A stretch of 64,000 nt of DNA, from NCBI RefSeq assembly GCF_003336875.1, contig NZ_QGNJ01000005.1, forward strand, positions 124,001-188,000, read 5' to 3'. The translations under genes and the position numbers were made by a program. This DNA comes from Oleisolibacter albus. GTDB lineage: Bacteria; Pseudomonadota; Alphaproteobacteria; Azospirillales; Azospirillaceae. Of the stretch, positions 1,122-5,029 are shown piece by piece; the stretch's first letter is position 1, and every line of letters starts with the position of its first letter. A model generated the notes under the pieces. The model was not told where the DNA came from, ran no database searches, and was given only the letters and a program-made list of their open reading frames with translations.

Positions 1122-1289
1122 ATGGCGAAGCAGAATACCGTACTGATCAAGCTGGTGAGCTCCGCGGACACCGGCTTCTTCTATGTGAAGAAGAAGAACC
1201 CCCGCAAGACGACCGAGAAGCTTGAGTTCAACAAGTACGATCCGGTCGCGCGCAAGCACGTTCCGTTCAAGGAATCGAAGATGAAGTAA
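1122..1289 (+). CDS. rpmG: 50S ribosomal protein L33
   Basis: A 55-residue, strongly basic protein beginning [20 protein letters not shown] and ending [11 protein letters not shown], typical of alphaproteobacterial L33. L33 is a small protein of the large ribosomal subunit near the tRNA exit site. There are no cysteines, so this is the zinc-independent form. It is a single-gene unit, with a promoter at 996-1023 and an intrinsic terminator at 1321-1347. Confidence 0.95.
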
Positions 1290-1320
1290 GCTCTGCGTTC
1301 CGCGAGCTTCTCACGATGAA

Positions 1321-1347
1321 AGGCCGCCCATCCGGGCGGCCTTTTTG
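1321..1347 (+). terminator. Intrinsic terminator after rpmG
   Basis: Perfect 9-bp stem (AGGCCGCCC / GGGCGGCCT) with a 4-base loop and a run of T directly after it. It lies 31 bases after the rpmG stop codon. Confidence 0.9.
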
Positions 1348-1591: not shown

Positions 1592-1930
1592 ATGACCCAG
1601 GATTCTGTCAATGTTTTGGATCAGGCGCGCAAGCACATTGAAGAAGCTCTGATCAAGAAGGCCGGCGAGGATGCCGGCTTCCGCGCACGCCTGCTGGCCA
1701 ATCCCCATGCCGCCATCAAGGAGATGATCGGCATCGATCCCATCCCCGCCACCAAGCTGACGGTGGTCGAGGAGAAGCCCGGCGAAGTGGTCATTGTGCT
1801 GCCGGCGGCCCTGTCGAACGTGGAACTGCCGGACGATCTGCTGGACCTCGCCTCCGGCGGCACCAGCTTCAGCGCGTTCCTTCCAGCCGATTACTATATG
1901 AATCCTGAGAAGTATCGCCGGAAGAAGTAA
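1592..1930 (+). CDS. NHLP-leader RiPP precursor peptide, copy 1
   Basis: A 112-residue protein with a long conserved leader and a short variable tail. The leader resembles the nitrile hydratase alpha subunit, as in NHLP (proteusin-type) precursors. Visible hallmarks are FRARLLANPHAAIKEMIG, KPGEVVIVLPA and VELPDDLLDLASGG, where the double glycine at residues 89-90 is the expected leader cleavage site. The predicted 22-residue core starts TSFSAF, contains Tyr-Tyr and further Tyr, and ends in a basic KYRRKK tail. It has no cysteine, so lanthionine or azoline chemistry from Cys is excluded. The leader is nearly identical to that of the gene at 2190. NHLP leaders are known to direct peptide maturases and C39-peptidase exporters; neither is seen in this window. 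A GNAT gene follows at 2615. Confidence 0.85.
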   Translation: MTQDSVNVLDQARKHIEEALIKKAGEDAGFRARLLANPHAAIKEMIGIDPIPATKLTVVEEKPGEVVIVLPAALSNVELPDDLLDLASGGTSFSAFLPADYYMNPEKYRRKK

Positions 1931-2189
1931 TCGGACAGCGGGACGTCACGCCTGCCGTTGGGAATGCCACCGACCATGGCCCGCCATGGATCGAGGTCGC
2001 GGCAGCCTCTGTGGGGTGGCAGTCCGATCGCAAGGCCGGGAAGGACAACACCGATGGGTCCTCCTCCCGGCCGGCTCCCAGGGTCTGCCGTGGCCTGCAC
2101 GGGTTCGGCCCCGGGAATGCGTCAGCCCCCCTGCCGATCGGATGGCTTCGCCCCTTTCTTCATCGACCTTTTCAGAAGGACTGAACCGG

Positions 2190-2525
2190 ATGAGCGGTAT
2201 TTCTTCCGATGCGCTGCATCAGGCGCGCAAACACATCGAAGGCGCGCTGGTCAAGAAGGCCGGCGAGGATGCGGGCTTCCGCGCCCGCCTGCTGGCCAAC
2301 CCCCATGCCGTCATCGACGAGCTGGTGGGCATGGACCCGATTCCCTCCACCAAAGTGACGGTGATCGAGGAAAAACCCGGTGAGGTGGTCATCGTGCTGC
2401 CGGCCGCCCTGTCGGGTGTGGAGCTGCCGGACGATCTGCTGGACCTTGCCTCCGGCGGCACCAGCTTCAGCGCGTTCATCCTCTATGGCCCGCCCTACCC
2501 CGACCGCAAGCCCAAGCGGGGCTGA
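2190..2525 (+). CDS. NHLP-leader RiPP precursor peptide, copy 2
   Basis: A 111-residue paralogue of the gene at 1592. The start is set by AGAAGGA at 2174-2180, nine bases before ATG 2190; the frame is open further upstream but without leader similarity. The leader again runs to a double glycine at residues 89-90 (LLDLASGG). The predicted 21-residue core starts with the same TSFSAF and then diverges into a Tyr/Pro-rich segment (ILYGPPYP) and a basic end (DRKPKRG). It has no cysteine. Strict conservation of the leader and first six core residues, with a free remainder, is the pattern of one maturation system acting on two products. Followed after 10 bases by a hairpin, then the GNAT gene. Confidence 0.85.
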   Translation: MSGISSDALHQARKHIEGALVKKAGEDAGFRARLLANPHAVIDELVGMDPIPSTKVTVIEEKPGEVVIVLPAALSGVELPDDLLDLASGGTSFSAFILYGPPYPDRKPKRG

Positions 2526-2535
2526 CCGCACTCTG

Positions 2536-2564
2536 CCGCCGGCAGCGATTTCCGCTGCCGGCGG
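2536..2564 (+). terminator. Hairpin between precursor 2 and the GNAT gene
   Basis: Perfect 11-bp stem CCGCCGGCAGC / GCTGCCGGCGG (12 bp if the inner G-C closes), followed by only two T. The weak U-tract suggests partial termination or 3' stabilisation of the precursor mRNA, giving more precursor than enzyme. Confidence 0.5.
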
Positions 2565-2614
2565 TTCCCGGATCTGGCACAGACAGGTCCGTACCGTGAC
2601 ACGCAGCCGTCGCC

Positions 2615-3577
2615 ATGATCCACGACCTGGTTATCCGCCGGATCCGCCCGGATGAAGCCGGCGTGTTCCGTGGCTTCACCTTCAAGACCTTCTCGGCTCT
2701 GCTCGCGCCGCCGGCCGTGCATGCCCCGGAACAGATCTGCCTTGGCGCCTGGGTCCAGGGCATTCCCGTCGGTCTGGCCCTTGCCGGTCCGGCCCTGTTG
2801 GCGCTTGGACGTTACCAGCTCTACTCGATCATGGTGGCCCCGGCTTGGCGCCGCCGGGGAATCGGGCGGGAACTGGTCCGGGCGGTCGCGGCTGAAACCG
2901 GGCGCCGCGGCGTCGCCACCCTGGCCACGGAATGGTCCGACCGGCTGCCCGGCGCCCACACGTTCGCGGCACTGCTGGCCGGTACGGGCTTCGGGGCACC
3001 GCAGGCGACCCTGCTGCGGGTCTCCGGACCGGTGGCCGCGGCAGAGCGGCTGTTCCGTCCGGGATTCGTTGATCGCATCCGGGCCGACGGGCTGCGGCTA
3101 CGGTCCTGGCAGGACATCGGCCCGGCAGCGCAGGCATTGGCCGATACTCTGGAACGGACCGGCGGGATTCCCCCCTGGGCCAATCCCGTGTCCCAATGGC
3201 AGGAGTTGGCCCCCGACCTGTCGCTGGTCCTGACCGACACAGAAGGCAAGATCCAGGGCTGGATCATCTGCACAGCCCAGCGCGCTCTGAACCGCTGGGT
3301 CTTTCCCATCGGCTGGGTCTCCCCGGCCTATGCCAAGCGCGGCTGGCTGCTGGCCGGTGTGGCGGAGGCCGCCCGCCTGCTGATGGAGCGGTACGGTCCC
3401 GATGCACGCGTGGCCCTGGAAACCAGCCCCCATACCCCCGCCATGTGGCAGATCCTGGAACGGCAGTTCACGCCAGTGGCCCAATGGTCGGACCGCCTGC
3501 TTACCGCCTCTGTCACGGTCGACACGATGCAGCCCGCCGCGATGGAGACGACCGCGGCAGCCCCCGGATCCCCATAG
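2615..3577 (+). CDS. Tandem GNAT-family acyltransferase next to RiPP precursors
   Basis: A 320-residue protein of two GNAT-like halves. The N-terminal half has the acyl-CoA binding motif A, read as VAPAWRRRGIGRELV at about residues 74-88. The second half (about 165-300) has a GNAT-like layout but lacks a clear RxxGxG pyrophosphate loop, so it is probably structural or substrate-binding. GNAT enzymes move an acyl group from CoA to an amine. It lies 90 bases after the second NHLP precursor, in the same direction. In the selidamide family, GNAT-type maturases fatty-acylate Lys/Orn side chains of proteusin-type precursors. Both cores here end in Lys/Arg, so a role as peptide acyltransferase is a reasonable inference. 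An unrelated acetyltransferase cannot be excluded. Confidence 0.75.
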   Translation: MIHDLVIRRIRPDEAGVFRGFTFKTFSALLAPPAVHAPEQICLGAWVQGIPVGLALAGPALLALGRYQLYSIMVAPAWRRRGIGRELVRAVAAETGRRGVATLATEWSDRLPGAHTFAALLAGTGFGAPQATLLRVSGPVAAAERLFRPGFVDRIRADGLRLRSWQDIGPAAQALADTLERTGGIPPWANPVSQWQELAPDLSLVLTDTEGKIQGWIICTAQRALNRWVFPIGWVSPAYAKRGWLLAGVAEAARLLMERYGPDARVALETSPHTPAMWQILERQFTPVAQWSDRLLTASVTVDTMQPAAMETTAAAPGSP

Positions 3578-3631: not shown

Positions 3632-5029
3632 CTAAGCCGCACCCGCGACGTCGGCCACCACCTTGTTGCGGCCCGAGCGCTTGGCCTGATAGAGGGCCAC
3701 ATCGGCGCGCCGCAGCAGACTTTCGCCGGTTTCCACATGCCCGTCGGGACCGGCTTCGGCCACGGCCACCCCGATGCTGATGGATACCCCGATCTCGCCG
3801 ACGGGCGCCCCCACCTTGAACCCTTCGTCACTGATGCGGCTGCGCAGCCGCTCCGCCACCACCAGAGCCTGAGTCAGGTCGGTGTCCGGCATGACCACGA
3901 CGAATTCCTCACCCCCCAGCCGCGCCACCAGATCGAAGTTGCGCAGATTGCGACCGGCCCGGCCGGCAACCTCCTTCAGCACCTCGTCGCCGATGGCATG
4001 ACCATAGCTGTCATTGACCAGCTTGAAATGGTCGATGTCGAACAGCAGGGCCGCCACCGGCTTGGCATTCTCGCGGCCACGGTCGAGCAGGCGCGGCAGA
4101 TGGGCCGAAAGATAGCGGCGGTTGAACAGGCCGGTCAGGCTGTCGGTCAGCGCCAGGCTGAGGCTCTGTTCGTAATTGGCACGCAGCCGATCCTGGTAAC
4201 GCTTGCGCCGGACCTGGGTCCGGGCCCTGGCCAGCAGCTCGTTGCGGTCGATCGGTTTGATCAGATAGTCGTTGGCGCCGAGTTCGAGCCCCTTGGCCAC
4301 CCGGTCCATGTCGGCCTCGTCCGCCAGCAGCAGCACCGGCGCCTGCCGGGTGCGCTCGTGGCTGCGCAGCTGCGAACACAGACGCAGGCCATCCTCGCGC
4401 AGCAGGGTCAGGCTGACGATGATCAGCTCGAACTCCTCCTGCTGCGCCCGCTCCAGGGCAGCACCACAACTCTCCAGCGCCACCACGCTGCTGCGGTCCC
4501 GGGCCAGCGTCTCGCCGATCTTGTCACGGTCGATGGCGCTGTCTTCCACCACCAGAATCCGCGCGCCCTCGGCCGACTGGGTCTGCACGGAGTCGGTCGA
4601 GACCAGCACCCCCAATTGTCCCGAGGTGCTTTCGCGCAGGCGCCACTCGTCCATCATCATCTTCAGCCGCACCAGCGAGCGGACGCGGGCGAACAGGGCC
4701 ACATCGTTGACCGGCTTGGTCAGGAAATCGTCCGCCCCGGCCTCCAGGCCGCGCACCCGGTCGGCAGCGTCGGACAGGGCTGTGACCATGACCACCGGGA
4801 TATGCATGATGGCGGGATCGGAACGGATGCGCTCACAGACCTCGAACCCGTCCATGCCCGGCATCATCACGTCGAGAAGAACGATGTCCGGCTGGTGATC
4901 CCGGATTCGGTCCAATGCCTCCGGCCCGCTGCTGGCGGTGATGACATCGAAGTACTCCCGCGTCAGCTTGGCGGCGAGCAGCTTCACATTGGGAAGGACG
5001 TCATCTACGACCAGAACCCGTGCCGACAT
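3632..5029 (-). CDS. pleD: PleD-type response regulator with diguanylate cyclase domain
   Basis: A 465-residue REC-REC-GGDEF protein, the PleD architecture. The first receiver has the phospho-acceptor Asp in DIVLLDVMMPG and the conserved KP. The second receiver has Ser where the Asp should be (LIIVSLTLL), as expected for the PleD adaptor domain. The cyclase domain has an intact GGEEF active site and an RxxD inhibitory site (RNFD) five residues before it. It makes c-di-GMP and is subject to product inhibition. In Caulobacter, PleD localises to the cell pole and controls the motile-to-sessile switch. It lies 36 bases downstream of divK, the canonical operon order. Confidence 0.95.
   Translation of the reverse strand: MSARVLVVDDVLPNVKLLAAKLTREYFDVITASSGPEALDRIRDHQPDIVLLDVMMPGMDGFEVCERIRSDPAIMHIPVVMVTALSDAADRVRGLEAGADDFLTKPVNDVALFARVRSLVRLKMMMDEWRLRESTSGQLGVLVSTDSVQTQSAEGARILVVEDSAIDRDKIGETLARDRSSVVALESCGAALERAQQEEFELIIVSLTLLREDGLRLCSQLRSHERTRQAPVLLLADEADMDRVAKGLELGANDYLIKPIDRNELLARARTQVRRKRYQDRLRANYEQSLSLALTDSLTGLFNRRYLSAHLPRLLDRGRENAKPVAALLFDIDHFKLVNDSYGHAIGDEVLKEVAGRAGRNLRNFDLVARLGGEEFVVVMPDTDLTQALVVAERLRSRISDEGFKVGAPVGEIGVSISIGVAVAEAGPDGHVETGESLLRRADVALYQAKRSGRNKVVADVAGAA

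Follow-up and report, generated by a model that had tools for sequence, protein, structure and literature searches.

Described GNAT-dependent systems and their relation to the present locus

The selidamide class of RiPPs is defined by side-chain lipidation through GNATs. In the selidamides kamptornamide and phaeornamide the GNAT puts a fatty acyl group on a side chain; an arginase first makes ornithine or hydroxy-ornithine, and a LanM acts as well. In the nostolysamide system the tandem GNAT NpuN lipidates Lys1 of the Nif11-leader peptide NpuA by a C16-type acylation that is lost on K1A substitution, and the enzyme has a P-loop in its N-terminal domain that is absent or divergent in the other domain (PMC13060382). 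The same source describes the place of catalysis within the tandem GNAT as open, and it also presents NpuN-related clusters with NHLP or Nif11 precursors in which a lanthionine synthetase is not always found. More generally, the NHLP and Nif11 families combine conserved leaders with hypervariable cores (PMC2887384).

Here we analysed a 64,000-nucleotide window from Oleisolibacter albus (part of contig C40 of a 4.69-Mb source genome) that encodes two NHLP precursors followed by a tandem GNAT (Table 1). The cassette resembles phaeornamide in pairing an NHLP-family precursor with a GNAT, and the two are encoded together, as in selidamides, both here and in relatives. Neither the arginase nor the LanM of kamptornamide and phaeornamide belongs to the window cassette, and the lanthionine synthetase and core cysteines of the characterised selidamides, which lie outside the definition of that class, are lacking. 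It resembles NpuN/NpuA, with NpuN compared by description only, in having a tandem GNAT with an N-terminal P-loop, a divergent C-terminal domain and a leader with a GG junction. Unlike the nostolysamide system, it comes without a LanM, with an exporter on another contig and with a conserved FSAF core; moreover, the acylated lysine of NpuA is core residue 1, whereas the candidate lysine here lies in the tail. The leaders (TIGR03793 and TIGR03798) and exporter models (TIGR03794, TIGR03796 and TIGR03797) are those of the NHLP/Nif11 and NHLM systems in PMC2887384. In light of the clusters in PMC13060382 that carry NHLP or Nif11 precursors with no constant lanthionine synthetase, the proposal of the initial annotation that this might be a new cluster type was too strong: to judge from that account the kind is already known and the window cassette is a variant of it, and our loci may be among those in its figure S15. 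A literature search of titles and abstracts, with queries other than the FSAF motif, returned no dedicated description of an NHLP/tandem-GNAT system.

Table 1. Features of the cassette and its flanks, in window positions
Feature	Position	Strand	Basis
Gene taken to be ribosomal-protein-L33-like, 5' of the cassette	1122..1289		
Terminator-like hairpin, 12 pairs	1318..1345	+	pattern scan only; 3' of the L33-like gene
Precursor A, 112 aa: NHLP leader (to LASGG) and core TSFSAFLPADYYMNPEKYRRKK	1592..1930	+	TIGR03793, 52.5 bits
Precursor B, 111 aa: NHLP leader and core TSFSAFILYGPPYPDRKPKRG	2190..2525	+	TIGR03793, 51.6 bits; orthologues in relatives
13-bp hairpin without T-run, in the gap between precursor B and GNAT	2535..2565	+	folding of the 92-nt intergenic stretch
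Tandem GNAT, 320 aa	2615..3577	+	PF00583, 42.7 bits at residues 35-102; halves align; family alignments and tree
Convergent gene presumed to be PleD-like, 3' of the GNAT	3632..5029	-	

Organisation of the cassette and its precursors

The three genes lie where the initial annotation had placed them, all on the same strand. A terminator-like hairpin would separate the presumed L33-like gene from the cassette (the pattern scan finds three such sites in the region, where shuffled sequences give 1.5 on average). The intergenic stretch ahead of the GNAT gene folds at -48.1 kcal/mol, with z=-4.5 for the whole stretch, a second and weaker hairpin included; its 13-bp hairpin might act through RNA stability or attenuation and may favour precursor over enzyme mRNA. 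In six congeners the ORFs displayed for the 1.5 kb behind the presumed PleD-like gene are different ones and have no FSAF motif, and the position of the cassette beside this gene is not conserved among them.

Both leaders score above the curated TIGR03793 cut-off of 50.9 bits, if narrowly, and end in LASGG, the GG junction characteristic of NHLP-leader RiPP precursors. The shared ending had been recognised from the outset, but the leaders are 80% identical rather than nearly identical as then claimed. By alignment to its orthologues, which were found in eight family genomes and in Shinella, precursor B most likely starts at the ATG at 2190 and not at the longer ORF start at 1986. The two precursors are the only TIGR03793 matches in the source genome, which also has two Nif11-type precursors (contigs C23 and C12). 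Other arrangements occur among the relatives. In G057 and G045 an ORF that diverges from a tandem GNAT gene encodes two NHLP-like leader units ahead of one core (L072:7270-7863 and L074:7267-8385), and G001 and G002 have Nif11-type precursor ORFs with Lys-bearing cores (L170:3558-4271 and L171:3364-3672), with no GNAT or exporter seen within the 7-8 kb read.

The tandem GNAT

The Pfam GNAT models match the N-terminal half of the enzyme only, where a P-loop, RRRGIG, starts at residue 79; a degenerate counterpart, KRGWL, starts at residue 241. The two halves align in register in profile comparisons, with a local hhalign E-value of 1.1e-4 (probability 57%) and a global one of 0.0012 (probability 8%). 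Given this alignment of the C-terminal half, which is better locally than globally, the term double GNAT is probably correct, the second domain being degenerate. Judged by sequence, the enzyme thus has the NpuN-type design of two GNAT domains with a P-loop only in the N-terminal one. A sequence search of the PDB gave six weak matches at E<=0.1 (best E=0.0019), namely single-domain GNATs at the P-loop region and arginase-like chains, and among the matches shown for 14 family members no NCBIfam model exceeded its cut-off (best E 1.1e-5). The source genome encodes two more tandem GNATs, on contig C12. Directly 5' of one of these (C12:72747), and nested in a longer ORF, lies a Nif11-type ORF that was found by a purpose-built profile only and missed by TIGR03798; the enzyme is labelled 'none' in the tree.

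Linkage of tandem GNATs to leader peptides

We collected 27 full-length tandem-GNAT loci: 20 from 99 relatives, four from 387 genomes of the class, two from 14 genomes of one family and one from 397 genomes of the phylum; in the class and phylum scans the best five candidates per genome were scored, so some loci may be missed. Linkage was counted at the 25 loci with 1.5-kb flanks. A leader-like ORF lies within 1.5 kb at 19 of these, as against none of 37 control loci, which are partial, single-domain GNAT matches at 35 distinct places (G070 and G072 count twice). Some of the case leaders went into building the leader profiles, which are therefore circular for the cases though not for the controls, and the cases include near-copies that are not independent (L011, L012 and L030; L008 and L009). 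The two remaining loci, G057:C18 and G045:C4, also have a leader ORF (L078 and L079). With the curated models (E<=0.001 for TIGR03793 and 0.01 for TIGR03798), a leader is found within 2 kb at 16 of the 27 full-length loci, and above the curated cut-off at nine. All these leaders are of the NHLP or Nif11 type.

The loci with no leader ORF within 1.5 kb are of several kinds. L008 and L009, the FSAF-clade GNATs of G009 and G002, have FSAF precursors on other contigs of their genomes; L121 has a Nif11 match 1.8 kb away; L122 and L158 each lie directly 5' of genes read as HlyD, C39-ABC and ABC2; and L032, a GNAT paralogue of the source genome, has no leader ORF that we could find at this distance. 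Full-length members are rare: two genomes of the even phylum sample of 397, one of them the source genome, have one at E<=1e-12 among the best five candidates per genome. The initial annotation had named a GNAT family that is widespread without NHLP neighbours as the outcome that would speak against it. The opposite is observed, members being rare and mostly adjacent to a leader ORF, and the genome search that it called for bears out a set of RiPP-type precursors with a dedicated GNAT, the window leaders themselves passing TIGR03793. A chance neighbourhood of precursors and GNAT is ruled out by the difference between case and control loci.

Several plasmids carry larger assemblies. In Shinella sp. 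H4-D48 p1, 12.2 kb hold NHLP exporter genes, a GNAT, a Nif11 precursor, a radical SAM gene, an NHLP precursor and a second GNAT, while unnamed_2 of Ensifer sp. PDNC004 encodes two GNATs together with exporter genes, one precursor annotated as Nif11 and hypothetical ORFs that we read as further leaders; a second Ensifer match lacks usable annotation. On pMHb of Mesorhizobium huakuii (L154:5858-10737), a Nif11 precursor, a radical SAM epimerase, a tandem GNAT and a second radical SAM maturase lie between transposases; the core of this Nif11 precursor begins with Lys, and similar GNATs are found on other Mesorhizobium and Aminobacter plasmids. In Nostoc sp. ATCC 53789 and Gloeothece PCC 7822 a related domain occurs in TIGR03032-annotated proteins with no leader annotated nearby. 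Such cyanobacterial plasmid proteins (L152:6720-8831 and L155:4864-6858) have a tandem-GNAT-like region of about 24% identity and lie beside large repeat-domain proteins.

Pairing of core type and GNAT clade

FSAF precursors and FSAF-clade GNATs are found in the same eight of 59 family genomes; the corresponding chance value, 1/C(59,8)=4.5e-10, ignores relatedness and is not relied on. Cores were read in the fetched loci, the arrays in G023, G031, G039, G042, G054 and G091 not copy by copy. A tree of 33 GNATs unites the FSAF partners, that of Shinella and two unlinked enzymes in one clade (100/100) and the GGK-core, exporter-only and Microcoleus enzymes in another (100/99), the Microcoleus plasmid homologue, our nearest stand-in for NpuN, sitting on the GGK side on a long branch. 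Eight of the nine Nif11 cores displayed for G441 contig C3 start with Lys straight after GG, as do the G239 core and both G608 cores, like Lys1 of NpuA. Ensifer is an exception, with FSxF cores on Nif11 leaders adjoining GNATs outside the FSAF clade.

These patterns bear on whether the precursors are the substrates of the GNAT at all. They might be exported unmodified or be modified by enzymes encoded elsewhere, with the GNAT acting on some other substrate, as the FSAF precursors of G009 and G002, with no adjacent GNAT, could suggest. However, an FSAF-clade GNAT is present on a different contig in each of these two genomes, and the genome-wide co-occurrence and the linkage described above also argue against this reading, which we regard as improbable. 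A role of the GNAT in self-protection, through acylation of either the mature peptide or the target of that peptide, is still more doubtful: GNATs do serve self-resistance in other pathways (PMC13060382), but several clusters, such as those of G001 and Shinella, pair separate GNATs with separate precursors, and GNAT clade tracks core class in most cases.

A largely conserved core start behind a drifting leader

What is new here is the FSAF core motif with a Lys-bearing tail, the start of which is conserved within its type. The motif is invariant in all 11 NHLP-type rows of the precursor alignment. It recurs in Shinella, and in Ensifer it follows Nif11 leaders. When precursor B is compared with its counterparts in G001, G009, G045, G044 and G051, the first ten core codons show 6, 3, 4, 5 and 3 synonymous changes, respectively, and no amino-acid change. 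Over the last 40 leader codons there are 13 synonymous and 15 amino-acid changes against G001, and 7 and 11, respectively, against G009 (the leader counts for the other three are inflated by a one-residue gap and were left unused). Hence, the core start has synonymous changes only in five of six Azospirillaceae comparisons within the GP type. It is not fixed throughout, since G057 differs from precursor B at four of the first ten core residues, precursor A by four amino-acid changes in ten core codons (and four in 40 leader codons), and Shinella by three amino-acid and four synonymous changes (16 synonymous and 15 amino-acid changes in the leader). Over the eight GP-type rows the core has a mean identity of 67%, the leader one of 63%. 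A fixed core start therefore holds in most of the GP type, not all of it, where it stands in contrast to the variable cores of the NHLP and Nif11 families in PMC2887384: here the core start is nearly fixed and the leader drifts.

In an even class sample of 387 genomes the precursor alignment matched seven genomes at E<=1e-10; only the match in the source genome reaches the core, the other six ending at about the leader. On the plasmid of Ensifer sp. PDNC004 (L116:4627-5457), cores of the FSAF/FSSF type follow Nif11-type leaders, a combination that resembles a swap of leader and core.

The candidate acyl acceptor

The cores are rich in lysine, which makes up 31 of the 238 residues of the 11 FSAF NHLP cores, whereas the figure for 48 long window ORFs is 2.5%. 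Lysine is present in all 13 FSxF cores. It is absent from six of 38 compiled cores (a subset of those seen), all from G383 and G455, and because of these six it is not the acceptor throughout the family; in those two genomes the acceptor would therefore be another residue. Their loci (L150:6666-7923 and L164:6843-7948) each have three Nif11-type precursors beside a tandem GNAT and an exporter, with short cores that contain one Cys, Asn and Asp.

Within the FSAF type, too, the GNAT might acylate another site, either the invariant Ser of FSAF or the core N-terminus after leader removal. In favour of this, FSAF is more constant than any single Lys position, and Lys-free cores exist in the wider family. 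Acylation of the N-terminus would, however, need prior removal of the leader, a step that C39 exporters couple to export, and every FSxF core retains lysine. The described enzymes point both ways: in pfl, another NHLP cluster, the GNAT is inactive on the full-length peptide and its authors favour N-terminal acylation (PMC12636437), whereas NpuN is a side-chain enzyme (PMC13060382). Taken together, we consider acylation away from the tail lysines rather unlikely.

A distant exporter and a proposed scattered pathway

The window had been noted to contain no exporter, which was expected to be elsewhere or absent. The former is the case: contig C23 of the source genome, not adjacent to the cassette, encodes an NHLM set of HlyD, C39-ABC1 and ABC2, and all three models of the exporter of NHLP-leader RiPPs are above cut-off (TIGR03794, 315 bits against 156; TIGR03796, 1002 against 853; TIGR03797, 775 against 709), which rules out absence. 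Its neighbours score below cut-off; they are a cyclic-nucleotide-binding protein (TIGR03896, 133 against 161) and another C39/ABC pair. The source genome thus has a small multi-precursor system distributed over three contigs; in G001, about 20 kb contain the exporter and both GNATs along with an NHLP and a Nif11 precursor. No LanM match (TIGR03897) was found in the source genome and neither window core has a Cys, so a lanthipeptide is unlikely; partial matches to the LanC part, below cut-off, occur in two of eight FSAF genomes.

These observations are best explained, with a probability that we put at about 0.6, by a RiPP pathway with its genes dispersed across the genome. The NHLP leaders would present the C-terminal cores of both precursors to the tandem GNAT, the N-terminal domain of which would bind acyl-CoA and transfer the acyl group to the core, with a tail Lys as the most likely acceptor; the precedent is NpuN, which acts on Lys1 of NpuA (PMC13060382). 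The C39 domain of the NHLM ABC1 would then cut after the double glycine, and HlyD, ABC1 and ABC2 would export a short acyl-peptide. Several observations weigh against this reading: the Lys-free cores of G383 and G455, the tail position of the candidate lysine as compared with NpuA, the leaderless paralogue L032 and the Nostoc and Gloeothece proteins, and the Ensifer FSxF cores next to GNATs of a different clade.

Implications

More tentatively, the FSAF peptide could be an acyl-peptide that is both conserved and exported, such as a signal, with the motif under purifying selection while leader type (NHLP or Nif11), gene order and GNAT clade change, and with acylation by the tandem GNAT as the sole maturation before cleavage and export; the amino-acid changes at the core start of G057, precursor A and Shinella make this less probable. 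Two precursors and one enzyme, in a genome without a lanthionine synthetase, would make a very compact system in which to study how leaders guide the acylation of peptides, and the GNAT clades with their differing cores offer natural variants for locating catalysis in tandem GNATs. Finally, RiPP cores are usually variable, and a core start that is nearly constant between species points to a single receptor or role that is itself fixed.
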